Made by a program: the position numbers and the translations under genes. A stretch of 64,000 bases of DNA. Origin: Tetraselmis striata. Taxonomy: Eukaryota; Chlorophyta; Chlorodendrophyceae; Chlorodendrales; Chlorodendraceae. Below the pieces are notes generated by a model that had not been told where the DNA came from, made no database searches, and worked only from the letters and a program-made list of their open reading frames with translations. How positions within the stretch are numbered: the stretch's first letter is position 1; each line of letters opens with the position of its first letter. Shown in pieces: positions 11,681 through 27,016 of the stretch. The stretch covers positions 124,001 through 188,000 of the forward strand of contig VCJN01001943.1 in the NCBI GenBank assembly GCA_006384855.1, given 5' to 3'.

Positions 11681-12173
11681 TGTTGGACCTAGGGTACCCC
11701 GGTACCTTGAATCCGCATTTTCTCTCTGTGAAATCCGCATTATTTTTCCAGTGAAGTGCTGGCCATCGTACATGTGCCTAAGATGTACGACACCCATATG
11801 CTACCAGAGTACGGCTTCTTTGCCAGATTGCCTTCTTCGATGGAGCGGTGTCTGCCCTAGTCGACACCTATATAGCCGGCTGGTATAAATTGTCAGCCTC
11901 GGCTCTTGTAAATTCAGTCAACTCCTCTTCCCAGAAATGTTCCGACTCACCCATTCTCTCTCGTGACAGTGCCACTCAGCCATCACCACGGCGACAGCGA
12001 CTACCTTTCGTCCATCGCCCATGACTCATCACATCAGCCCTTTGCCTTTCCAGCTTGCACCTTGCTTGCTGGCACTCGACGCGACTCGACGCGTGCGTGC
12101 CGACTCTTGCCGACTCTACCCCTACATAGTGACTGTGCCATTGAGCCATCTCTTCGACAATCTCCCTCCGACA
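11681..12173 (+). repeat. 5' LTR of the copia element (493 bp)
   Basis: Starts TGTTGGACCTAGGG and ends CCCTCCGACA, so it has the TG...CA ends. It matches the 3' LTR throughout except for point differences, small indels and the SINE present only in the 3' copy. It serves as the empty site for that SINE. No clear initiator-tRNA primer site follows it. Confidence 0.95.
11884..11890 (+). promoter_or_regulatory. TATA box in the 5' LTR
   Basis: TATAAAT in GGCTGGTATAAATTGTCAGC, about 200 bases into the LTR and conserved in the 3' LTR at 22252-22258. A plausible U3 core promoter. Confidence 0.6.
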
Positions 12174-12363
12174 GGTTTTTGAGACCTCTCCTTTGGTTTG
12201 GCGTCTTGCCCCGTGCTCGACACCTGCCCGAGGCTTCAACCTGCGTGTATCTCGACCCTCGACAGCTTTCGACGGTCGACGGCGACGTGCGATGAGATTT
12301 TCTTCCCACCCGCCCACCCCTACAGTTATACATCTTCCAGCACAAGTGCGCCATCCTTCCATA

Positions 12364-13010
12364 ATGTCTACCAGCATCACCACCGGCATGATGAACACCC
12401 CCCTAGCCAATTTGGCGCGGCAGAGTGCAATCAAGACGAACCCTGGCGGCGCTACTCCATCACCACCTGAATTCCGTGATGATACCAGTTCTGACGACGC
12501 CTTCAGCCTGGACGGTGCATGAGACAGTGACTCAAGTGACATCCAGCAGATCAAGCCGGCTGCAGTGAAGCCGACACTCGACCTCAAGAACGTCCTCATC
12601 TGGGACAGCACCATCTCTACGCGGGACAACGCTCAAGCCATCAAGATCTCAGCAGCGGCGGCAGGGGCGGCAGCAGGAGTAGCTGCAGCCGTCGGAAACG
12701 GCCCGCCGGCGCCGGTCTCGGAGGACGATGTTATGGGTGTGGGGGAGGACCCCGTTGGCGAAGACGGTATGGACATCGACGCGCCTGCGTGGCCGCCGGC
12801 GGACGTGGAAGCTGCCGATGAGGGCGTGATACGGAAAGGCGATCCCGGTGACTTCTACATGAAGGTCATCGCCAAGAAGTTCCGGGGAGTATGGCACTAC
12901 GGCGTGATAACCGGCGTCGTTACCGAGTGGGTGTGGGAGGACTACGGCGGGGCGACCCAGTGGCGCGCTGTTTTCGAGGACGGTGACATTGTGGACCTGC
13001 GTTCAGAGGT
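12364..13010 (+). pseudogene. gag-region ORF with a Tudor-like 'EDGD' domain, one in-frame stop
   Basis: Begins MSTSITTGMMNTPLANLARQ about 190 bases after the LTR. The frame is interrupted by a TGA at about 12520, where the following DSDSSD suggests a mutated Arg codon, and then runs to the copy B boundary. The N-terminal half is low-complexity and acidic. The C-terminal half has KKFRGVWHYGVITGVV, then VFEDGDIVDLRSE, the pattern of small Tudor/chromo-like modules in which a beta-barrel ends in an E/D-G-D motif. Such a module could tether the element to chromatin; that is inference. No zinc knuckle was found. Confidence 0.6.
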
Positions 13011-13255
13011 GAGTGCGCCCGGCCTGCGTGCTGGTGGCACCACTCAACTCCGGTTGTATGGAATCACACGCACCCGCCCGGTCGGCGTGGCAGGTTGTGG
13101 AGGCTATGGCGGCTGCCCAGGAGCACCCCCCTGTGGATGCGGACGGGGATGCTCGCTTGGTAACCGTCCATGAAGGCGATGACTTGTCCAGTGAATCACG
13201 CACCTTGCCCGGCGTGCGTTCAACACAAATGACGGCATTCCCCTCCATGATTGCA

Positions 13256-13798
13256 GGGTCAGGCAAGGTGACGGTGCAGTCCGGCTGGGTCATGGAGGAC
13301 TGCTTGCACCACATGGAAACGTTTTCCATTATTAACCCCGGTCCGCTGTTCGAGGAGGCCCGGGTGAAGGCGATCATGACCGAGAAGGAGCTCGCGACCC
13401 CAGCGGTGGTGCGTTCGGTGTCGCGACTGGCGGTGCTTGGGCACATGTACAAGCGCCTGCAAGGAGCTGCGTGGTTCGTCACGCGGTGGGGGTTACAGAA
13501 TGTGGTGACGGAGGAGGACGGCCCCGAGCGCGCGGCGCAGGTGGACGCGCTCACCAGGGAGGGGAGGACTCGATACCCAGCGCGGCGCCAAGGCGCGGCG
13601 GCCGGGGCAGCGCGGCGCCAACGCGCGGCGGCCGGGGCAGCGCGGCGCCAAGGCGCGGCGGCCGGGGCAGCGCGGCGCCAACGCGCGGCGGCCGGGGCAG
13701 CGCGGCGCCAACGCGAGTGGGATGGGCGGGGCAGCGGTTGCTACAGAGTGAGGCGTAGCATCGTTTGCAGTAGCAACGCAGCCTTTCCGGTTGCATAG
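13256..13798 (+). CDS. Unrecognised ORF with a 10-residue repeat tail (copy B)
   Basis: Intact version of the copy A fragment, with no family recognised. The first 100 or so residues are non-repetitive and contain the segments VMEDCLHHMETF and LGHMYKRLQGAAWFVTRWG. The frame then runs through five 30-bp minisatellite units, giving alternating QGAAAGAARR and QRAAAGAARR repeats, and ends at 13798. The frame is open upstream to 13013. A strong donor-like CAGAGGTGAGTG at about 13004-13015 and an acceptor at 13247-13257 suggest it may be spliced to the preceding gag-like ORF. Start codon undetermined. Confidence 0.4.
   Translation, partial: GSGKVTVQSGWVMEDCLHHMETFSIINPGPLFEEARVKAIMTEKELATPAVVRSVSRLAVLGHMYKRLQGAAWFVTRWGLQNVVTEEDGPERAAQVDALTREGRTRYPARRQGAAAGAARRQRAAAGAARRQGAAAGAARRQRAAAGAARRQREWDGRGSGCYRVRRSIVCSSNAAFPVA
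13575..13717. repeat. 30-bp minisatellite, 5 units (copy B)
   Basis: Same 30-base unit as at 676-1740, in the corresponding place of copy B, alternating between the AAGGCGCGG and AACGCGCGG variants. The array ends directly at GAGTGGGATGGGCGG, the start of the next shared segment. Confidence 0.95.
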
Positions 13799-13888
13799 TG
13801 TGATACCGCCTGGATGTAACCTAGCAGTACGCGCAAAGTGCAAGTGTTACACGTCCGTGTGCCCCACCCAATGACATTGCGCCCGACC

Positions 13889-14362
13889 TCACTGACGGCA
13901 TGTCTCGCTCTCCTTCATCTCCTGGGCCGTCCGCCGCCTCACCCTGCGCACCCTACCAACCGCGCGTGCCTTCTCGGAAGCCTCACACACGGCGGCGCGA
14001 GTCGCGTCGTGGAACGCGTCCCTGACATGGCGGAACTCCGCCCTCACCGTGGCCGTGGTCGGGCAGGGGACTGCCCGCTGATGGGTCGCCATGCATGGGT
14101 ACTTGGGGCCGCACAAAGCCGGGGTGCCGTCGCAGCAACACTCCCAGTCCGTCCGTTGGCCGCAGTACACGCATGACGGGTGTCCGGCCAGGACACGCAC
14201 ATGATAGTGCATGTGGCCGCCTCCCGCCACTGCTCGTAGTGCTCCGGTCATCATGGCGACGAGCAAGTCGGCATGTCCCGCAGGTGGCTGCGGGGCGGGT
14301 GGCGCGAGCGCAGCCTCGCTCGCCTCGACAACCCCCTCAGCCCGATCAGTCGCCTCGACCAC
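13889..14362 (-). CDS. Cysteine/histidine cluster protein (copy B)
   Basis: Copy B counterpart of 2690-3163. It has the same length of 157 codons and differs at only a few residues (for example CVYCGQRT here against CVDCGQRT in A). All cysteines of the cluster are kept. A conserved Pro-rich minus-strand frame lies upstream at 14492-14905, and runs of C/G between the two differ in length between copies, so any joined reading frame would need an intron there. Function uncertain; zinc-binding transposase tail is the best guess. Confidence 0.5.
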   Translation of the reverse strand: MVEATDRAEGVVEASEAALAPPAPQPPAGHADLLVAMMTGALRAVAGGGHMHYHVRVLAGHPSCVYCGQRTDWECCCDGTPALCGPKYPCMATHQRAVPCPTTATVRAEFRHVRDAFHDATRAAVCEASEKARAVGRVRRVRRRTAQEMKESETCRQ

Positions 14363-15496
14363 GGCCTCCTCCGCCTCCAGACGCGGCGCACCAGGCGCAT
14401 CATCGTCGCCTGGCAGGGCGTCCCCCCCCCCGCAACGGCGCCGTCGGCGGTGGCCGACGCCGTCGTGGCGGGGTGTTGTGAGGAGGTGGCCCTAGACATA
14501 GGTGGGGCCGGCACCGCCATGTGTTGCTCCACATGCGGTGCGGTTCCTGACGCGACATCTCCGTCGCACCGGTACCGGCGCCGGCACCCCACGCCTTCTG
14601 CGCTTACCACCAACCGGCATGTTTCCTTTGGGAGGCGGTTCATCCGCGTCGGAGGTGAGCGGCGGTGCCGGTGTGGGTGTGGATACTGCCCGGCCATTAG
14701 GGCTCCCGCCGCCTGCCGCTCCGCCGACCCACGCCGCGGCGTGTGCTGCACCCCACATAGTCGCCTCGAATATATTATACATGACGCGGGGACGGGGGGG
14801 GGGGGGGGGGGGGGGGAAATCGTGCGTTTCGTATGTCGGCGGAACGGCGTGCGAAGCTGCGGCTGGCGAAGGTGGTGGAAGTAAGCGTGGCGGCGTCGGC
14901 GGCATATTACCGTGCGTGCATGCGTGCGCAACCCCGCGGCAGCAAGCGCCGGACTCGGCGTGTGCCGGCGGCAGAGCTGCGAAGCCATGGACACGGTACG
15001 GGATGCCAAGTCTGGCTAAGCAACTGCCGAGGCTGGCGGCTTAACCCCCATGTTCGGCGGTTGAGGGACGGAAAGTGCGTAGAAGTTGATCGGCAAAGCG
15101 GGCATATAAGCCTGGCTGTGCTAGGGTCCTATTAAGTAATGGCGGTTTGTGCTAAGTAATTCGTAGGGGTGGACCATGCAGCGCAGGTAGGGGGCGGTAT
15201 AAATGAGGCCGGGCACATATACTGCTCCACGAAACGATACTGTCGCACGTGTAGTTGAATAGACCCCCCCCCCCCCCCCCCACCCCCCGCCGGGTCGGCC
15301 CGCCGACCCGCCACGGCATGTAATATCTGTCATGCATCGCCGGGGTATGTGTGAGTGGATGCCCCGCCGCCACATCCCCCCCCCCCCCTCCCCCCCCCAT
15401 TTGCACTTGTGCACTCATTAAGTTTGGGCTGGTTTCGGAGCAGTACATGTACGTATGTATATACATACAATGGAGCGTAGGACCTGCGCGGAAAGA

Positions 15497-16490
15497 GGCG
15501 GGGCTGGCGGAGTGCGTTGGGGGTGCGTAGAGTAGCGTGTTGGTGAGATTCGGGGTGCATCGGACGCCGGATGCCCATCCACCCAGCGTAAAAGACGCGT
15601 ACGTAATATTCACACTATATATATTCACACGCAAATGTGTGAAAACCGGACATTCCGTGCCGGAAGGGTGGGAATACGGCGTCCGATGCAGCCAAAACCC
15701 CAGGAACACGCTATTCTATGCACCGCCAATGCACTCCGCCAGCACCGCCTCATTCTCTGTCGATTTCAAAAACGCCTTCACATTATCCACCGCTAATTGC
15801 AATTGCCACCGTGTAATGTTGTCACGATGTGCGCACACAACAACACTTACTACCGGTTCCGACGCGGATGGAGGCGGGGCTTGCGGAGTGCACTGGCGGT
15901 GCACAGACTAGCGTGCTGCAAATAATTGGGGTGCATCGGACGCCGGATGCCCATCCACCCGGCGTAAAAGACGCGTAATATTCACACTATATTAACACAC
16001 AAATGTGTGAAAACCGGACATTCCGTGCCGGATTGATGGGAATACGGCGTCCGATGCAGCCAAAACCCCAGGAACACGCTATTCTATGCATCGCCAATGC
16101 GCTCCGCCAGCACCGCCTCATTCTCTGTCGATTTCGAAAACGCCTTCACATTATCCACCGCTAATTGCAATTGCCACCTTGTAATGTTGTCACGATAGAT
16201 GTGCGCACACAACAACACTTACTACCGGTTCCCACGCGGATGGAGGCGGGGCTTGCGGAGTGCATTGGCGGTGCGTAGAGTAGCGTGCTGTAAATACTTG
16301 GGGTGCATCGGACGCCGGATGCCCATCCACCCGGCGTAAAGGACGCGTAATATTCACACTATATTCACACACAAATGTGTGAAAACCGGACATTCCGTGC
16401 CGGATGGATGGGAATACGGCGTCTGATGCAGCCAAAACCCCAGCAACACGCTATTCTATGCACCGCCAATGCACTCCATCCGCAACCCCC
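15497..16490 (+). repeat. Tandem array of about 370-bp hairpin units, copy B
   Basis: Same unit as 4318-5480, with starts near 15497, 15870 and 16247. The third unit is cut short near 16490, where the sequence diverges into material unlike copy A (CCCCGCCCCATTCCCAG on). The inverted arms and the central CACACAAATGTGTG palindrome are retained in units two and three. Confidence 0.92.
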
Positions 16491-17160
16491 GCCCCATTCC
16501 CAGTCGTACGTGCTTGTGCACACGCACGGAATGCTTGCACTGCTCCGAAACCACTGTCACATACCCCGCTCATTGGGTACCGATTGCGGCGCATGCACGG
16601 CTAGATATTTGTTTACATAAACCGGGGGGGGGGGGGGGGGGGGCACAGTGTCGCGCTACTCACCCTGCATTGGATTAGGGCGACGATTGCAAACAAGACG
16701 AGGAGGCGCGAATGAACTGCTCCGAAACCACGCGATGTGCCCGGTGACCTCCATATCCAGCACGTCCACCGATGCAAGTAATAAGGACAGGACCCCTCCC
16801 CCCCCCCCCGCCCCCCCCCCCCCCCACCCGCCAAAGTGGAGGAAGTGTAGGAGTACAACCGGAGCATGACGTGATCCATTGTCGCTTATTTACAAGCACG
16901 GGCGGTGCTGCCAGACCCGATCGTCTACGGCCGATATAATATTCACACTATATTCACATCGGTGCACACCGCCGCACACCGCCGCACAACGCTGCGCACA
17001 TCCGCGCACATTCGTCGCGCACAGATACGCGCGCCCTACCGCACATATTATCCCGGATTCACTCGGTGAAACCGCGTATTCATTACGCCGTGCTACTTCA
17101 ACAATAAACATTGCGAAATTACACCGTCACAATGCCGCACCGACTAGCTCTTGACAATAC

Positions 17161-17175
17161 GTGCATATAAATAGT
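17161..17175 (+). promoter_or_regulatory. Candidate TATA box (copy B)
   Basis: Same GCATATAAATAG motif as copy A, upstream of the conserved frames at 17307-17873. Confidence 0.45.
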
Positions 17176-17306
17176 AGTGGCGCGCTGCTCCTCGCCTCCG
17201 ATGTGTCGTTGACCGCTGCGGAAGGCGGTCGTCGACTGGGTGTTAGTTTCTCCACCTCGGCCGCCCCCCCCCCCCCCCCCCCCCCCCCTTCACCGCTCAC
17301 AGCGCC

Positions 17307-17873
17307 ATGGCAGACCTCGCCCCCCGGGCAAAAGTGGGCGGCGAGCCTTGTTGTTTCGCGTGTCCGCGCCGCCGGCATCGAGGAGGACGAGAAAGACATG
17401 AGGAAACGCGTGACAAGGTGGGCGCGCAACAAAACACTCCACCCTCCACATTAGCACGCACCCACTCGTGGCTAGCTTGTGCCGCGCGCAGGTTCGTCCG
17501 GGAGCGCCGTAAGGCCCACCTCAATGCCAAGGCTTCCACAGTGCCAGCGGCGCAACTCGTGGTGGCCGAGGAGGCCGCATCCTCAGCCGCTTAACGGCGA
17601 AACGATTGTGGCTTGTTGTGGGCGTCTGGGCACAGGGGGCGTCCCGACGCCAAGGTAAGGAAGCTCATGGCGGCGTCGTCGACGGCACAGCCTCCCGGGG
17701 TGGTGAAGACACTGACGGATGACAAGAAGCGGAAGAGGCCAGTGAAGAAGCGCCGAGGTAAGAAACTGACGGTCGCGGAGTCGGAGGCAGAGTCGGAGGC
17801 GGAGGCGGAGGCGGAGGCAGCGAGATCGTCGAAGCGGAGGGTCCCCCGGGCACGCAAGAACAAGAACAAGTAG
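17307..17873 (+). CDS. Small basic protein gene of the repeated block (copy B)
   Basis: Counterpart of 5815-6463. The first frame (17307-17594) begins MADLAPRAKVGGEPCC. The second (ATG 17667 to 17873, 68 aa) has the same KKRKRPVKKRRGKK motif but a shorter AE repeat than copy A, a triplet-unit contraction that keeps the frame. It ends NKNK then TAG. The conserved frames despite many silent and indel differences nearby suggest real coding. Confidence 0.42.
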
Positions 17874-18599
17874 TAGCCCCCGCCCCCTTACCCCCCTCCC
17901 CTCACTCCCCCGGCGGGAGCGGCGGGCGGCGGGGGGGGGGGGGGGGGGGGGGGCGGCGGGGGGAGTGAGGCCCTCCCCTCACGCCCGCCCGCCTCCCCCC
18001 CCCCCCCCCCGCCACATGCCCCGACGGCAGCTGTCGCAAATATTGTAATTCAAACATTCTTCGGCAGACCGCTGCCTGCCCCCGCCCTCCCCCTCGCGAA
18101 TATTTATGTAACGTGAGCACTCTTTGGCAAAACATGGCAGCCAAACCGCCCATCTGATGACCTTTGATCGGACGGCTGGCAGGCCCGTTCAGCAGTACTA
18201 GCTATAATGTACACAAAACTCCCCACTCTTACCAAATAGTACGGCTGCGATTTGCGCTCCCATGTACTAATAGTCGTAGTTATCCACATGACGACTCGTC
18301 ATCGCGCCCGGGTTCGTACTAGATACCCGGTACCGGCTTAATAAATATATCGCGTACTACCCGGTACTACACGGACAACCTCGTACCTTGTACGTCAGTG
18401 CCATGTAACACGTCACCGGGCTAGTACGACTACCAGAATGATTACAAAAAGGATTTATCGCCCGCCGGCAATAACGCCGGATGTACTCGCACGTAACTGG
18501 ATGGACGTGCCGCCACCAGCAGCAGCCTTCACGGATAAATAATAGTCGCTAGTAGTAGTGCTTCGTCACCCGTATGTCACATCTGAATCTCACAGTGCT

Positions 18600-18914
18600 A
18601 CCCGTTCGTGGGTGTGTCTACGACGGCGTAGCACCACAACAACATACCCATCATCCTCATCTGCACCACCGCAGCCCCAGGAGGGGCGGCCACCGGAGCG
18701 CAGGAGGGGGAGGGTGAGGACGACGCGGAGGATAACTCACATGACCACTGGCAACGCCCTCAACCCGCCCCCACCCCAATCCAACCCCTATGCCTCACCT
18801 CACCCACATTCCCGGCCTCGGCGGCGTTGGCGTCGTCCCACGTCCTTCATGCGGAGCAGGGCGTCCTGCGTGGCGACCCGCCACCAACGTTGCCGCTCCC
18901 CGATCCTCCAGCTG
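18600..18914 (+). other. Linker before the methyltransferase
   Basis: Low-complexity, Pro- and acid-rich coding-like sequence. No integrase or protease motif is visible in any frame. It directly follows the end of copy B. Confidence 0.5.
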
Positions 18915-19893
18915 CCAACCTCTCCGGTCGTCGACCATCTCTTTTCGCCGTGCCATGGCCCATCAGCATCTGGGGTAGAGGCTCTGGTAGAGTGCGGCTT
19001 CACCATCCACAAGATCACCGGCGTCGACCCATCAACCGAGGCTCGCACTATGTGGACACATCGCCTACATGTCATCAGCAACAAGTATACCCGGACCGTC
19101 TGCCTCCATCAACATTTCAGCACTGTCATGCCAGGACACCCATGGACGTCAACGACATCACCACCACGGAGATGGAGCACATGCGCCCGGTCACGCTCAT
19201 CGTCCCAGGCCCACCGTGTCAACCATGGTCACGCGCGGGCTCGTGCCTTGGCTGGCAGGACCATCGCTCTCGGGCCTTTGCTTCCGTCATCGGTGTCATC
19301 TGTTTCTACCTGACTACACAGCTAACACCAGTGCGCTATATTGTGGAGAATGTTCCGGGCGCGCTGAGCTTCCCTGAATTACTCTCCTCACTTGGAACCG
19401 GCAACATCATGCGCGCGACCGCCGGCGGCTCAGCAGCTCACCGCGACACCCTCATGTGGACCAATATTGCCCCACAACCAGACATCCAGAGCTACGTCAT
19501 TAACGTCAACGCCATCGAGCTCACCGACCCCGGCCCCTGCGCGTGGGACCTCTGCCTCTCCGAATTCCCCCACCTTACAATCCAGTGGTGACAACCGACT
19601 ACTTTCCAGAGTAGTTCGTCGCCCGCCCCGGCTCCTACGCCTTTCGCATGCAGACCTACTGTCGGCCGGGCGTTGGCATGGTCTACGAACATGATGGCCC
19701 CTGGTCATGGGCAGACAAAGACAGATGGAGCGAACTCCCTGCAGCTCTACGCGCTCGCGCCATGGGCTTCACCTTGGATGATCTGCCCACATCTCACCTT
19801 TCCGAGGCGTCACTACGCACCCTTCTCGGCGGAGTCATCGATCTCAACGTAATGCGCAACTACATCAAGGCTGTCTCGGGCGCCGCCACTGCC
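18915..19893 (+). pseudogene. C5-cytosine DNA methyltransferase domain of the retroelement (frameshifted)
   Basis: The family motifs occur in the right order but in three frames. Motif I-like: HLFSPCHGPSASGVEAL, with TGVDPSTEA after it (cofactor-binding region, frame of 18924). Motif IV: VPGPPCQPWSRAG at about 19203-19240, with the catalytic Cys in PPCQ. Motif VI: VENVPGA at about 19341-19361. Motif VIII-like: AAHRDTLMWTN. Motifs IX/X: LRARAMGF and LGGVIDLNVMRNY. The frame changes near 19085-19090, at a duplicated TA, and near 19560-19570, at a C run. One further in-frame TAG lies near 19612. In C5 methyltransferases these motifs transfer methyl from S-adenosylmethionine to cytosine C5. This copy cannot be active as read. 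Confidence 0.88.
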
Positions 19894-20097
19894 CTAGTCA
19901 TCAATGTCTGCCACACATCGCACGGCATCTACAACCCTACTACTAGGCGCGAAATAGTGACACGTGATGTCATCTTTGACGAGGTAACACGACCCTTCTC
20001 CAGCACACCGGCTCTCTCTATGCGAGTCTTCCAGTTCCCCGACGATGACCACCTGTTGCACGAGCCGCAACCCTTGGACCAGCAGGAGGGGCCCTAA
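19894..20097 (+). pseudogene. Copia integrase C-terminal tail, fused in frame to the methyltransferase
   Basis: GIYNPTTRREIVTRDVIFDE is the conserved end of the copia integrase (pattern: Y-x-P-x-T-R-x-x-x-x-S/T-R-D-V-x-F-D-E). It lies in the same uninterrupted frame (19648-20097) as methyltransferase motifs IX/X about 40 residues upstream. The integrase zinc finger and DDE core are absent from this copy. Confidence 0.8.
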
Positions 20098-20289
20098 GCA
20101 CCGCCACCCATGCCATCATCAGCGGCGCTTGCCTCGGCACAGGAGGGCCCCCCACCTCCGCATCACGACGAGCAGTATCTTCCGCGTCACTAGGAGGGGG
20201 ACGTCACAACACTACCATCTCCTCACTTCAGCGGAGCGGCGCAACTGTCTTCCCCTTATATCGACCTCAGCGACTACCACCCCACGCTA

Positions 20290-21160
20290 GTGGCATCCGC
20301 CATCGCGGAGGTTGTGCGCCCCTACTCAGCGCAAATGGCAGCCCTCGACCTACCAGCACCCACCGTCCGCGTGTCCAAGGCGCCGCGCAACTACACGGAT
20401 GCCATCTCCAGCAATCACCCCGATGACTGGAAACCGTCCATGGACCGTGAGATCGACTCTATTATCTCCAAGACGGTGACTTTTGTTTGGATCGGCGTCC
20501 CTGAGCTTCGACGCAACAACCCGTAAGCGATCATCATACAGACGGCGTGGGCCTTCGCGGAGAAACACGACAAGGATGGCAACGTCATCAAGCGCTAGGC
20601 CAGGAGTGGTCGTCCGCGGCGATCAACTCACCGCCGGCAAGAACTATGATGACACCAATACCTATACCCCAGTCGTCAGCTTCATCGCCTTGCGCACCAC
20701 TAATGCTCTCGCAGTTCAATTCGACGGGGAGCTATACGACGTCACCTGTGCTTTCCTCAACGCTAACCTCGATGAAGATGTCTACGTCTACCCCCCCCCC
20801 CCCCCCCCCGTGGCTACAACCGCAAAGACCACGCTTGGAAACTCGTCGTTAAGGCACTCTACGGCATGCCGCAGCCAGGCACCCAAGGCATGGTTTCTGC
20901 GCTTTTCTTCCTTTCTCCGTGACTTCGGCTTCATCGGCTCCGAGTGCGATCCCGGCGTATGGACGTTGCTTGCCGCCGATGGATCCATGCTGGCCATCCT
21001 ATGCGTCTACGTTGATGACATCATGCTGGCTACCTCCCGGTCGTCCAACATTCATGAGCGTTTTCAGACTTCTCTCTTCCACTGCGGTTTGATGCAACCA
21101 CTAACGGCCTATCCACCTGGCTTCTTGGCATGGCCATTGAACGCAAGCCGGGAGGCGTGA
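20290..21160 (+). pseudogene. Copia reverse transcriptase, frameshifted
   Basis: Starts with the pre-RT pattern NHPDDWKPSMDREIDSI. It continues with WAFAEKHDKDGNVIKR (an in-frame stop and a one-base shift follow), then VVVRGDQLTAGKNYDDTNTY, LYDVTCAFLNANLDEDVYVY and the catalytic box CVYVDDIMLA near 21006-21035. A C run at 20791-20810 shortens or replaces the segment after the VYVY motif. Family assignment to Ty1/copia rests on the YVDD box and the flanking segments. Non-functional as read. Confidence 0.9.
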
Positions 21161-21960
21161 TCCACCTCCATCAGGAAGAAATACATCAACGACATCCTAA
21201 CTACCTTCAACATGACGGAGTGCAAGCCTCGCCGCCTTCCTTGCACGCCGGATACCGACTACTTTCATGACCCTACAAGCGCGCCTCTCGACACCAAACT
21301 CTTTCCCTATCCCAATCTTGTTGTCAGCCTTATATGGCTGGCTGTGGCATCGCGTCCGGATATTGCTTTCGTGGTCGGCCGACTGTGCGCCTATATGGCG
21401 TCCCCCACCGAGCATCACTGGCAGATCGCCATCTCGGTGTTGCGCTACCTCAAGGGCACCCCAAGCCATGGCCTCATTTTCCGGAAGCAACTGGACAACG
21501 GAGCACCTGACTTCATCTTCTCTGTGGACGCTGACTGGGCGACCTTCATGCCCAAACGCCGCTCCACTACCGGTTATCTTGGCTTGGTGCACGGCACCCA
21601 ATCGCCTACCGCGCGCAGGTTCAGAAGAGCATGCCCATGTCTACTGCCGAGGCGGAGTTCGTGGCGCTCTGCATGGCCTGCAAATGCATGGCATCTATTC
21701 GCATTCTTCTGCGCCAGCTCAGCCACCCCACCACTGACCCAGTGCGGGTATGCGAGGACAACTTGCGTGCATCGTTCTGGTGAAGCATGGTATGATTACA
21801 GGCGCGCAACGCCACATTGATCTCAAGTTTCAGTATGCGGCCCCACTTTGTCAAGACGGCATCATCGACATGCACTAATACACGCCTACCACATACCAGA
21901 TGGCCGAGTTCTTCACCAAGGCGCTGCCACTGACTACCTTTCTTCATTTCCGCGCTTTCC
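21161..21960 (+). pseudogene. Copia RNase H domain, frameshifted
   Basis: The frame 21212-21820 carries LVVSLIWLAVASRPDIAFVV, SVLRYLKGTPSHGLIF, the RNase H first acidic segment SVDADWA and the RRSTTGYLGLVHG motif. In the next frame comes MSTAEAEFVALCMACK, the second acidic motif of copia RNase H. The tail up to 21960 is degraded. Confidence 0.88.
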
Positions 21961-22030
21961 TGATGGGGTCATCCGAGGAGCCTTCCGTTGCGCCTCTGCC
22001 GCCATCAGTCTTGCGCCCGCGGGATTCCAC

Positions 22031-22044
22031 AGGATGAGGAGGGG
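22031..22044 (+). other. Polypurine tract
   Basis: AGGATGAGGAGGGG immediately before the 3' LTR TGTTGG, the usual priming site for plus-strand synthesis. Confidence 0.8.
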
Positions 22045-22789
22045 TGTTGGACCTAGGGTACCCCGGTACCTTGAATCCGCATTTTCTCTTTGTGAAATCC
22101 GCATTATTTTTCTAGTGAAGTGCTGGCCGCCGTACATGTGCCTAAGGTGTACGACACCCATATGCTACCGGAGTACGGCACTTAGACTTCTTTGCCAGAT
22201 TGCCTTCTTCGATGGAGCGGTGTCTGCCCTAGTCGACACCGAGCCGGCTGGTATAAATTGTCAGCCTCGGCTCCTGTAAAAGTAAAGTAAAGTTCGCCCC
22301 GGGACATCGGCCGAAGCCGCCCCAGTACTTGACCTCGTGCGGCAACTGCAGTCGTAGGTCTGGCATAGCCCATAGACCATTGCCTCATTCGAACCCCGAA
22401 GGGCTAATGCATCAACCGAGTAAACCCGGGCCGATATTGCCGAAATACATCGGCCAGGAATCGAACCCGGTACCTCTCGCACACGAGACGACCGCTCTAC
22501 CGAGCGGACAAGGGATGTACCTTGCTCCTGTAATTCAGTCAACTCCTCTTCTCAGAAATGTTCCGACTCGCCCATTCTCTCTCGTGACAGTGCCACTCAG
22601 CCATCACCACGGCGACAGCGACTACCTTTCGTCCATCGCCCACGGCTCACAGCAACCCTTTGCCTTTCCAGCTTGCACCTTGCTTGCTGGCACTCGACGC
22701 GACTCGACGCGTGTGTGCCGACTCTCGCCGACTCTCCCCCTATAGTGACAGTGCCACTGAGCCATCACTTCGACAATCTCCCTCCGACA
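22045..22789 (+). repeat. 3' LTR of the copia element, interrupted by a SINE
   Basis: 745 bp. Removing the 254-bp SINE plus one target repeat gives 491 bp, against 493 for the 5' LTR. Differences between the LTRs (for example CTATATAGCC against CGAGCC) indicate an old insertion. Confidence 0.95.
22280..22523 (-). mobile_element. tRNA-derived SINE inserted in the 3' LTR
   Basis: Reading the minus strand from 22523, the head contains an A-box-like GCTCGGTAGAGCGG and a perfect B box GGTTCGATTCC, the internal RNA polymerase III promoter of tRNAs. About 180 bases of unrelated body follow, and it ends in a CTTTACTTTACTT tail. It is flanked by an exact 10-base target duplication GCTCCTGTAA (22270-22279 and 22524-22533). 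The 5' LTR has only one copy of that site (GCTCTTGTAA near 11909). The anticodon arm is too eroded for a functional tRNA. Confidence 0.9.
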
Positions 22790-23800
22790 GAAACAATATT
22801 ATACGAAGTAATCTACATGGTAGCTCGTATATTTATAGCTTTTGATGTGCTGGAAGAATGGTGCTGGCAGCGTCATGATAATCAGCGCAGCATGCCACTG
22901 TCACTTATAACTGCCACGCAATGCATCGTCATATATCCGCCTGCAGTACGGTATCATGATCGGCATCCGTAGTGCGCATTCGGCAGTGTAGTACCTGTAG
23001 CGACTTGCAAGTACTGGTGTGAATTACAAAAAGGGCAGTACTGGTAGTAGCTATAGTTCGTTCGATGCTGAGTGGGCGGCTGCGTCGCGGGTGCCCGTCG
23101 AGCCCGTATACTGGTCGTCGACGCCGCCGGCGCGGCGGGCACGGCATCTGCTTATTTTGCGAACTACTAGCAGCGTAGCTCCCCGCACTACTGTACAATA
23201 AGGCAATCCTTACCGTGTCGTCGCGACTCGAATTCGACGACGGCGACGCCGCACCAAACCTCCCACTGGTCGGAGCAGCCGTGTCAAGGTATCAATCAGA
23301 CCCTTGAATACTGTCGAAATACTGCGTCGGAGTCTTCTCGGGTGCTCCTGTGGGATGGTGGCAAGCCTCCTGGACACGAACATTCATGTCGTCGTATGTG
23401 AAAAATAATCAGTAACGACCGGTGCGTCATGCGCACAGCAGCAGCACCGGCTACGGTAAACCGACGGTCTGGTGCGGAGGAGCCGGTGATGGCCCGAATC
23501 GCTCGCCAACACTGCGAGCGTTGCACGGAACGCGGATTCGGAGCATGCCGATTGAGATGTCGATAGCTGGGGAGGCGGCTGCCGATGGAGCTTGTGCGAT
23601 GCATGTTCGTTCGACGATGGGCAGTGCACGCCACAGCTCTTGGTGGCGGCGTATGTATTGGCGTCGTTGAAATCAGCGTTTGGAACCGATTGTGGGGTTC
23701 AAACGCCCCACATGAAACCGGAGCTAAACAGGCGAAACCGTGGTGTTGACGTTGATTCGTTCTTTTCGGTGGCGGGCTTGCGTGGGGATGGCTCGTTGGG

Positions 23801-23831
<31 letters not shown>

Positions 23832-24078
23832 CGTTGAAGAAGCAAGGGCGCCCGCCGTTTACTACAGTAAACGCGCTTCAATTCACCGCACGTGACACTG
23901 AGGTCGTTAGCATGTCGGCGCGTTCATGTGAGGCGGAACTCAGAGCCGCTTACAACGGCACTTATAAGTGCGTTGTTCTCTACCCATCCCTCGCAGGTCG
24001 TCCGTTGGCGACGGCGTGGGGCAGCTGCGTGGAGACTGAAGCAGCTGTCCTAGGCGGTCGCCCAGTCGGCCAGGAACC
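22790..24078. other. Intergenic stretch
   Basis: No gene recognised on either strand. It contains a G run of about 29 (23803-23831). Short plus- and minus-strand frames over 23.3-23.7 kb have no recognisable motif. Confidence 0.5.
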
Positions 24079-27016
24079 ATGGTGGGCCGGAGCGGTCGCT
24101 ACGCGGCGTGCTTGGCACTGTTTGCGTCCCTCCTGTCGGCTTGTCAGCGGCCAGTGGGCGCCGAGCCAGAGCAGGTGCATATCTCCATCACGGACAAGAA
24201 TGACGAAATTGTTGTCTGGTGGATGACCGACCGTCAGACCGAGACGTCCACCGTCCGGTATGGGCTGAACCCGGACAATCTTAACCTGACCGCCACGAGC
24301 AACAAAATTCAGCAGTACAAGTACCGCGGTATCCGAATGCGCGGGGGTTACACCTCCCCGTATATCCACGAGGTAGTTGTCAACGGGCTGCGGCGTGACG
24401 AGTATCAAATCCGGTACTACTACAAGTGTGGCGACCCCAGCGATGGCTGGTCCGAAGTTCGGAGCTTCCTTACTCGACCCGAGCACCCGGACGTCCCGGT
24501 GACATTCGCCGCTTTGGGTGACACGGTGAGACTTTCCACGACGACACAATGCCGATCCAGCCGATGCGCATGTGACGCATGCATGCATGTTTCTGAGTTG
24601 AGGTGCCGTATCTCCCCGTATTTTCGCAGGACGCGGGGCAAGATGACCTTGAAGACTGCCGGAATCTAGACCGCTGCGTGCCAGCCACAAGAACGGAGGA
24701 TGTGATGAGCATGATCCTGCAGCGCACCCACAACATCGTTCCCACGGATCTGATGCTTCATGTTGGAGACATGAGCTATGCTGACGGCAACCAGGTACAG
24801 CTTTCGACCCGTATCTGCTTGCCGGGCGGATGAGCGAGCCTCAGGCGTAGGCTCGAAGCTGTTTGCAGGATGTGAGTGCAGAAGTATCACAATTGGTGCC
24901 ATCCTGCAGGATCATTGGGACTCGTTTGGAAGGCTTGTGCAGAATACCACCTCTGAGGTGCCTATCATCACGGCTGTGGGAAACCATGAGTTTGAGAATC
25001 GTGCGCTCCCTTGCATGGTGTCCATCCAACTCCCTGCATGCCTACGACATGTGCACGCTGAGGCAAGACATCAATGCGCTAACACACATTGCGCGCGGCG
25101 GCGCAGGCAAAACATACGATGCTTGGCTGTATAGATGGCGCCACGACGAGCCCAACAACGGGGGGGACTATTGGTTCAGTTTCGATTACGGCCCCGTTCA
25201 CTTCGTGTTTCTCACTACCGAGCATGACTCGAGGCGCCAGGTTGATTGGCTGGAAAGGGACCTGGGTGCCGCCGACACGCCGGAGCGCAGGCTGCGCGTG
25301 CCCTGGATCATTGTGATCGCCCACCACCCGATGTTGAACGCCGGAAAGTACTCAATGAGCGGTGACAACCGCGACGCCTTTGCGCCTCTCTTCAAGAGGC
25401 ACCGGGTCACCATGTATTTCTGCGGACACTGTCATAACTACGAGCGGACGATGCCCATCAATGCGGATGGCATCACAGACACCGGCGCCGGCACCCTCCA
25501 AGAGCCGTACATTCAGGAGATCCACCCAGCCTCTGCGGTCGCCCGCGTGGGGTCTCGCTTAGAGGCTGTTCCAGGATACTGCAACTGGAGTGGCTGCCAG
25601 GACGGCAGGCAGGGGGATCCCTGGTGCAGCGGTGGGCAACCCGCCCAACTTGCTCTGAATACTGATCGCTGCGGTGCATTTGCTCTAACGCGCTGATTCC
25701 GATGCATTTATTTTCTGCGTCAAACAGAGGCGGCGACCAACTGCATGGTGGACTGCGCTGGCATCTGGTGCCGTCTTGAGGACGAGAAGGAAGGGGAGAA
25801 TAACGATCGCCGCGGCCGCGACGATGATGACGACGGCGGCTACGGACGCATGGCTGATGGCTGGGGGACAATTCATATGATAATTGGGATGGGCGGCCGC
25901 CGCGGCGACCAGTGCCCCGCGCTGGTGCGCCCGCTTTGCGCTGCAGCCCTGTCCTCGGTGTTTCCTGCTCGGTTTCGGCGTGTGCTGATGGGCTGAGCCG
26001 TGTGGTGGACCCCGCAGGCGCACACTCAGAGCCGGCCTAAGGCAGCCCGTGGCGCGGCATTCTTCACAGTGGACCGGAGCACACTGCACTGGAAGTACAT
26101 TGACACAGAGTACGCTGTGCGCTATTAGAATAAAGCCGTTTTCATGTTGCTGGGGCCGTTTCCTGCCAAACTTTATTTAAATGCCAGTGCTGGCTCACCG
26201 GGTGGGGGCTCATGTCAACCCTGACAAAACCCTACCCCCTAACAATGCGCCTGCAGGGGTGACATCATTGACGAGATGAAGATTTGCAGCCGCGCCGGAT
26301 GCGCGGAGGCACCCCCCATCGACGACCTGCCCCCCCTGCCCCCAGCACCGCGGCCGCTGGACAACGAGCGCCGCAAGCTTGACAACGGTTCCGCGCTGGA
26401 AGACGGCGCCGAAGAAGTGGAGCTTCCAAACTACCTGGAGAACAACGAGCTCACCTTTGGCGCGCCCGCGGAGCAGTGCCCCGTGACGGGCGTCACCATC
26501 AACCTCAGCCCGCCCTCCGCTGAGCTGCAGGCGCAGCTCTCCACGCAATATGGATGCCATCTCGAATCACTCGACAACAACGCTTACCTCACTGACGCTG
26601 TCGACTCTGGCAACACGACGCGCGGTGGGGGCGGAGACCAAGCGCCCGGCACGGGCGCGTCAGCAGAAGCGCAGGCCTCAACCTGGGAGAGCATCGTCGC
26701 TGACGCGAAAGCGCTGCTGTCCAACCCAGGGTTCGCAGTTCCCGTCGCCATCGCGCTTGCACTGGGGATTGTTCTCCTGATTGTCGTCATCATGGTGGTG
26801 GTCCGCTCGTGCAAGGCCAAGCCACCCGCACCCCCGGATGCCGACGATGGTGACAAGCAGACCCCGGTGGGTGAGCAGCCACTCTCGAGAGTCGCCGAGA
26901 GGCTTCAGGATGCTGCTGCGGCAAGCAGCCTCCAACGGCATCGCTCGGAGGGCGTCGATTCCTTCAAGGTGGAGGATGAAGCGCTGCTGTCGGTGTCCAT
27001 CTCTTCTGATGTGTAA
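24079..27016 (+). CDS. Purple acid phosphatase with C-terminal membrane anchor
   Basis: Metallophosphoesterase of the secretory pathway; such enzymes hydrolyse phosphomonoesters with a binuclear metal centre. Exons with matching phase are 24079-24525, 24630-24794, 24910-25000 and 25107 to about 25540, then 26018-26109 and 26257-27016. The piece between 25540 and 26018 is not resolved. The start gives a signal peptide (LALFASLLSACQ). An N-terminal Fn3-like part (VVWWMTDRQTETSTVRYGL) precedes the metal motifs GDTDAG, GDMSYADG, GNHEFE, VIAHHP and GHCHNYERT, all five family blocks. The last exon adds about 240 residues with one transmembrane helix (AVPVAIALALGIVLLIVVI) followed by a cytoplasmic tail, unlike most family members, suggesting a cell-surface phosphatase. 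Confidence 0.85.
26127..26133 (+). promoter_or_regulatory. Possible intronic polyadenylation signal in the phosphatase gene
   Basis: If the last intron (26110-26256) is not spliced, the frame reads six more codons to a TAG at about 26126-26128, which overlaps GAATAAAGCC. Use of this AATAAA would give a shorter protein without the membrane anchor. Purely a sequence observation; many algae use other signals. Confidence 0.3.

Follow-up and report, generated by a model that had tools for sequence, protein, structure and literature searches.

Introduction

Some LINE, DIRS and Gypsy retroelements are known to encode DNA methyltransferases (DNMTs) of their own (PMC5890265). Here we describe a C5-cytosine methyltransferase domain within the Gag-Pol polyprotein of a Ty1/Copia long terminal repeat (LTR) retrotransposon family, designated family A, of the chlorodendrophycean green alga Tetraselmis striata, a decayed copy of which lies in the 64,000-nucleotide stretch analysed (hereafter, the window; contig VCJN01001943.1, positions 124,001 to 188,000 of the forward strand, assembly GCA_006384855.1). 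Copia is a new host element type for the known retroelement DNMTs.

KnitGypsy-Dnmt3 of Klebsormidium nitens is likewise an LTR retrotransposon whose Pol open reading frame (ORF) includes a Dnmt3-like domain, and it is under purifying selection, with Ka/Ks < 0.2 (PMC5890265); it is, however, a Ty3/Gypsy element, whereas those of Tetraselmis are Ty1/Copia (RVT_2). SymbioDIRS-Dnmt3 of Symbiodinium also bears a Dnmt3-like domain in Pol and makes its cDNA before insertion but, unlike Copia, is a DIRS element with a tyrosine recombinase; SymbioDIRS domains methylate CG in yeast, and methylation of the cDNA has been proposed for DIRS by De Mendoza et al. (PMC5890265). SymbioLINE-Dnmt is again a retroelement-borne C5-methyltransferase, but of a non-LTR element (PMC5890265). 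All three are compared here by description only, as given in passages of that paper.

Regarding Copia itself, the elements of Symbiodinium are reported there to be devoid of DNMT domains (PMC5890265), and the portion considered of a plant LTR-element survey records domain gain in Gypsy and none in Copia (PMC9289625). One sentence of a further paper does say "LTR Copia" (PMC12344493), citing for it PMC5890265, whose charophyte element is a Gypsy one; the word "Tetraselmis" does not occur in the main text of PMC12344493. Among the matches listed in a search of the full-text literature, with most subscription papers and all preprints outside its reach, there was no particular Copia element with a DNMT, and none in Tetraselmis.

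Results and Discussion

Family A Encodes the Methyltransferase between Gag and Protease

In open copies of family A, the order of the encoded parts is Gag, zinc knuckle, methyltransferase, protease, integrase, reverse transcriptase (RT) and RNase H. The longest open ORF (L021) comprises 2,162 amino acids (aa), with ~2,050 aa of ORF after the gag ATG, and shows the zinc knuckle at aa 395, the methyltransferase at 700-1020, the protease motif at 1050, HHCC at 1200, the integrase core from 1261, the YVDD of RT at 1823 and RNase H at 1992; the Copia landmarks (PR, HHCC, YVDD), as well as the names and roles of methyltransferase motifs I to X, follow common usage. The order protease-integrase-RT-RNase H, with RVT_2 (PF07727), holds in L021, L022 and L024, in L079 of family E, and in P0137, an ORF on a 74-kb public contig.

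An initial annotation of the window had proposed a C5-cytosine methyltransferase in a Copia polyprotein, which the open copies bear out, and had described it as fused to the integrase tail, which they contradict by placing the enzyme after the Gag zinc knuckle and ahead of the protease. The single open frame reported to join motifs IX and X to the integrase end RDVIFDE is indeed seen in the window (19615-20097, 160 aa), but it exists because a ~1.27-kb deletion has removed the protease, the HHCC zinc domain and the integrase core, the tblastn pieces jumping from aa 1038 to 1464. The order in open copies, together with this deletion junction, rules out an integrase-tail fusion as a family trait.

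Intact copies, which that annotation suggested looking for elsewhere in the genome, were found. With the window ORF as query, at least 151 matches were obtained (150 of 290 candidates scored), many within long open frames. The full 321-aa domain stands without a stop in at least 21 places among 127 matches listed. When lists of methyltransferase matches (142 of 915 first-look candidates scored) and of RT matches (124 of 524) were compared, each of the 15 family-A copies listed whose RT lies in an ORF of 1,000 aa or more had a methyltransferase match immediately 5' of it, in the same orientation, and no open member without the domain was found among them. The methyltransferase is split by a frameshift in two of the 15, C2467 and C2898, being spread in the latter over two ORFs of 652 and 1,294 aa. 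Shorter RT pieces without a listed methyltransferase also occur (e.g., C2446, C2551, C1601, C1451 and C753).

The family-A copies examined were chosen from the best matches and not at random. Besides the window, LTR pairs (TG...CA, 481-507 bp) were present in six of the seven stretches examined, two of them fully identical (100%), three at 99.8% identity and one at 96.8%, while no LTR pair was seen in L026, a decayed copy. Target-site duplications of 5 bp were found in all five copies with both flanks read. The near-identical LTRs and these duplications therefore indicate recent insertion. Fourteen proteins matched the methyltransferase of an open copy, eight of them bearing names with Tetstr1, the JGI code of T. 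striata, five of these at 96-99% identity and the others at 79, 66 and 61%.

In the window, the motif-I-like segment HLFSPCHG, PPCQ (in PGPPCQPWSRAG), ENV (in YIVENVPG) and motifs IX/X occur in order on the plus strand, as had been annotated, and the methyltransferase pieces fall successively in frames 3, 2 and 1, in agreement with the frameshifts also claimed. The 319-aa ORF at 18632-19588 matches PF00145 at 36.5 bits (cut-off 22), a match that spans only profile positions 42-116 of 324, and a profile derived from six methyltransferase domains belonging to other element families also recognises all three pieces individually (E-values in Table 1). None of 3,000 shuffled versions of the pieces was reported by the latter profile at E<=10, which rules out chance motifs. 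The window copy is frameshifted and carries other inserted DNA, as might be expected had its motifs arisen by chance or had a methyltransferase been inserted once, in one copy; nonetheless, we give such an origin practically no credence in view of the shuffles, the stop-free full-length domains, the related lineages with the domain beside the protease and the selection between sublineages described below. The methyltransferase is a family trait and no chance insertion, and therefore neither of the outcomes named beforehand as contrary to it, intact members lacking the enzyme or motifs failing a profile search, is what was found.

Purifying Selection on the Domain

Ratios of non-synonymous to synonymous change (dN/dS), a comparison across copies also suggested initially, were obtained by pairwise Nei-Gojobori counts against one real copy, with stops, gaps and uncovered codons dropped. 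Between C2898 and L021, the domain shows 109 synonymous and 45 non-synonymous changes (dS 0.71, dN 0.065, dN/dS 0.09), revealing purifying selection with a binomial p of 3.5e-33, and the RT gives a ratio of 0.10. Selection on the domain between these two family-A sublineages is thereby shown to be as strong as that on RT. Since the domain is frameshifted in C2898 itself, the signal predates the decay of this copy.

Domain ratios in nine broken copies range from 0.24 to 0.64, as expected from neutral change added after insertion, and are lower than those of RT in five of the eight copies with both measured (in the window copy, 0.31 vs 0.51). Among the 17 comparisons in family B, a further Copia lineage, ratios are 0.20-0.23 for four with dS 0.17-0.21 and 0.26 for one with dS 0.11; the domains of families B and C, compared with each other, yield 0.24 at dS 1.7.

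Affinity and Origin of the Domain

Among solved structures, DNMT3 is the closest to the domain by both sequence and fold, DNMT3 chains ranking first in both; by sequence, E-values are 1e-18 for DNMT3 vs 8e-9 for Dnmt2, and in the fold search Dnmt2 appears at rank 47. The predicted fold, taken from a model built on 36 rows after an earlier one (pLDDT 57) was set aside as poor, is shown to be DNMT3-like. The DNMT3A/3B catalytic domain has 18% identity to the Copia domain in the alignment, the latter differing in being embedded in Gag-Pol, and the PWWP and ADD domains, given in a passage of PMC12344493 as known from animal DNMT3, were not found in the Copia polyproteins scanned. A lone, long-branched partial DNMT3A row shifts between two trees, which hold no DNMT1, DNMT5 or DRM rows.

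The Gag zinc knuckle is an RNA-binding part, and the position of the domain after it, together with the presence of Dnmt2 among the fold matches, would suit an enzyme that methylates RNA (the genomic RNA of the element or its tRNA primer) instead of DNA. On the contrary, DNMT3 comes first by sequence and fold, well above Dnmt2 by sequence, and an RNA substrate is considered very unlikely.

Neither a close viral source nor a close host donor was encountered: 10 viral contigs were found, with only 24-35% identity over parts of the domain, and hmmsearch of L029-L045 reached 48.8 bits at best (L041), spliced genes being those that this search could miss. Repeated stand-alone methyltransferase genes of 323-341 aa, weakly like the retroelement domains, were observed at L029-L034 and L036-L039. 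A 224-aa ORF stands at the same place upstream of the methyltransferase in L030-L033, and the stand-alone genes therefore probably belong to some other mobile or viral element.

Related Copia Lineages and Other Retroelements

Homologous domains are present in families B (L046, L080), C (L060, L081), E (L079) and H (L093), in fragment D (L064) and in P0137. The domain occupies the same site, between zinc knuckle and protease, in A, E (L079 ORF, 2,147 aa) and P0137 (2,514 aa), while in B and C, for each of which two pieces with the Gag side outside were read, the protease motif comes directly after it. Family H is represented by one 941-base piece, and it is assigned to Copia from an ORF on C1901 that also holds an RT match (42% identity). 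Motifs I, IV (PC), VI (ENV), VIII, IX and X of C5-methyltransferases follow one another in order in the Copia domains, catalytic residues being lost in family G and fragment D. PF00145 scores above its cut-off in families A, B and P0137, and below it in E (18.5 vs 22). A PF00145 list of the genome misses the domain of family E, and counts made with it are therefore lower bounds. The public gene model P0138, of a family-E element, was seen to miss a large part of the L079-type methyltransferase; automatic gene models may hide such domains.

A 28-row tree groups the seven Copia domains in a single clade (98/96) that excludes the Gypsy, LINE and environmental rows; the Copia clade had 94/93 in an earlier tree without family H. 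A Copia family with a 1,561-aa ORF (L078) has no methyltransferase domain, and in a midpoint-rooted RT tree (no outgroup) it stands beside B/C/E/P0137, with A outside both. These topologies would fit a single capture that the L078 lineage later lost, or transfer of the domain from one Copia lineage to another.

Family G, related to A, accounts for 45 of the 127 listed matches, as assigned by identity and range. The one copy read as DNA (L092, G000:C554:56600-60300) is devoid of the protease, the integrase and the C-terminal part of the methyltransferase, and TPLQ replaces PPCQ and QNC replaces ENV both in L092 and in the protein P0006. With a long open Gag ORF and tens of copies, family G is a deletion derivative of family A and likely a non-autonomous element.

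Outside Copia, the nearest relatives found include Gypsy polyproteins with PHD and DNMT domains, with 26-37% identity to family A. In P0009, P0010 and P0013, RNase H precedes the domain and integrase follows it, in contrast with the position between zinc knuckle and protease seen in Copia, and the PHD finger, located before the integrase in P0009 and P0010 and after it in P0013, was not found in the Copia polyproteins scanned. The LINE-type P0011 and L059 share a wider clade with the Copia domains, to which the bacterial rows do not belong, although the domain of P0011 is downstream of RT and before RNase H, unlike that of Copia. L059 (G000:C2687:19600-22000) is a LINE-type ORF of 3,505 aa on C2687 with DNMT and then RNase H, and its homologue P0011 also has APE endonuclease, RVT_1, PHD and PCIF1_WW domains.

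Proposed Function

The function that we favour, and regard as rather likely, is that of a Copia Gag-Pol whose DNMT3-like methyltransferase would act on DNA in the course of the element's cycle. Being made in one polyprotein with Gag, the domain would be packaged in the virus-like particle, where it would either be released by the protease or stay. During or just after reverse transcription, and before or at integration, it would then methylate the double-stranded DNA newly made from the element itself, or host DNA around the place of integration. The new copy would enter the genome already marked, which might bring quick silencing, thus limiting harm, or keep it from being seen as foreign. De novo DNA methylation appears the more likely part of this proposal, more so than any particular benefit of the mark.

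A number of observations weigh against methylation by the element in its particle. (i) Motif I of family A is unusual (FSPCHG), motif IV varies (PPCA in family E, PDCQ in F, PCCE in H), fragment D is without the Glu of ENV, and among 26 family-A loci the catalytic Cys is missing in one and the motif VIII Arg in three; moreover, not all members need the enzyme in cis, family G having multiplied although Cys and Glu are lost in the two members read. (ii) The domain ratio exceeds that of RT in three of the eight broken copies (0.64 vs 0.34 in C2717, 0.40 vs 0.20 in C883 and 0.56 vs 0.24 in C2425), eight very close family-B pairs give 0.25-1.0 on 4-11 changes, and ratios of 0.42-0.78, on 40-46 changes, come from three family-B copies at dS 0.05-0.09, of which two contain a stop. 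(iii) In many young family-A copies the reading frame shifts at a poly-C tract within RT, a shift that may reflect slippage in vivo or, in part, sequencing error. (iv) The CpG observed/expected value is ~0.90-0.96 for seven stretches of the element and 0.91-1.11 across the window, and C-to-T (G-to-A) change at CpG in nine copies is only 1.0-2.2-fold that at other C/G sites and roughly matches A/T transitions in frequency; CpG is depleted little, if at all, and there is no strong methylation footprint. (v) The SymbioLINE domain examined is described as giving no DNA methylation in yeast (PMC5890265), where retroelement DNMTs are therefore not all active.

The varied motif IV of families E, F and H, the retention by family G (two members) of part of the domain without Cys and Glu, and the small CpG depletion would also suit a nucleic-acid-binding or structural part of Gag-Pol, serving in packaging or strand annealing, for which catalysis no longer matters. 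However, the catalytic Cys is found in 25/26 family-A loci and the Glu in 26/26, and across 36 aligned methyltransferase rows the Cys is invariant and the Glu at least 90% kept. A role in binding alone is disfavoured because it would not keep these catalytic residues, and we judge it distinctly unlikely.

The target might also be other DNA, the enzyme acting on rival elements or viral DNA, or altering host methylation, the element profiting because the host is helped or its silencing disturbed. A defence role has been proposed for retroelement methylases, in the passage considered of PMC6338049, and the genome holds other repeated methyltransferase genes, the stand-alone ones included; in contrast, a single ORF with Gag and Pol in L021, L079 and P0137 gives no sequence sign of a separate, released enzyme, making this alternative unlikely.

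Turning back to self-methylation, a broader scenario can be put forward tentatively, and with some doubt: an ancestral Copia element would have captured a DNMT3-like enzyme a single time, between Gag and protease, its descendants would have retained it as a core piece of Gag-Pol under selection matching that on RT and would methylate their own new copies in the particle, and family G would parasitise them with a dead enzyme. The genome of one culturable alga contains young Copia elements with a selected enzyme, Copia elements without the enzyme and a derivative without the catalytic residues, and a direct comparison of methylation among the three could show why a transposon would methylate DNA. 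Hosts commonly use cytosine methylation against transposons; if the proposed function is true, a retrotransposon lineage would be writing it on its own new copies as a regular step of its cycle.

Organization of the Window Element

The element in the window is a dead, old member of family A (Table 1), and non-element DNA is present inside its limits. Its placement within an LTR element, initially given at 18915-20097, holds in that an LTR pair is present, but the element is far larger than this interval. Its LTRs are identical at 465 of 485 compared positions (95.9%; Kimura two-parameter distance 0.043), and no clear target-site duplication is observed (flanks ACAAC and GAAAC, as read from the L022 blastn).

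Table 1. Features of the family-A element in the window (positions are those of the window).
Feature	Position	Strand	Basis
Full span of the broken family-A Copia element, both LTRs included	11681..22790	+	blastn of young copy L022 vs window
5' LTR, begins TGTTGG	11681..12177	+	blastn with L022
gag start (MSTSI...), broken off, one in-frame stop	12364..12648	+	tblastn, blastn
~5.95 kb without element match	12649..18597	.	gap between blastn pieces
Partial linker, gag zinc knuckle to methyltransferase	18598..18753	+	blastn to L022
Methyltransferase piece 1, motif I region, frame 3	18897..19088	+	tblastn; profile E 1.3e-6
Methyltransferase piece 2, motifs IV (PPCQ), VI (ENV) and VIII (AAHR), frame 2	19088..19579	+	PF00145 E 4.7e-9; profile E 3.1e-39
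Methyltransferase piece 3, motifs IX and X, frame 1	19570..19926	+	tblastn; profile E 6.2e-17
Deletion junction, ~1.27 kb missing	19922..19927	+	L022 5924 -> 7194 at same point
Integrase SH3-like tail end (RDVIFDE) and linker to RT	19927..20604	+	tblastn; PF25597
Copia reverse transcriptase and RNase H, frameshifted	20606..22034	+	RVT_2 E 3.1e-18; tblastn pieces
3' LTR, split by 244-bp insert	22045..22790	+	blastn with L022; LTR comparison
244-bp insert within 3' LTR, tRNA-like B box on minus strand	22280..22523	-	sequence

The segment without element match stands where ~980 bp of element would be (blastn vs L022), from which we infer a putative insert; repeat copies with a period of ~372 bp occur within it at 15500-16490. 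One stop interrupts the frame of methyltransferase piece 3 just upstream of 19615. The integrase tail and linker are 80% identical over 230 aa to aa 1464-1692 of the L021 polyprotein (tblastn), and the PF25597 match of the tail, at 19.5 bits, is under the cut-off of 27. The RT frameshift lies near a poly-C tract, at ~20788 (tract 20788-20806).

ARAGORN and Rfam found no gene in the 244-bp insert of the 3' LTR, which is flanked on both sides by GCTCCTGTA(A) and is a probable tRNA-derived short interspersed nuclear element. Downstream of the element, at 24040-25693, the window contains a host-like gene with purple acid phosphatase N-terminal and metallophosphatase domains, extending over two ORFs.
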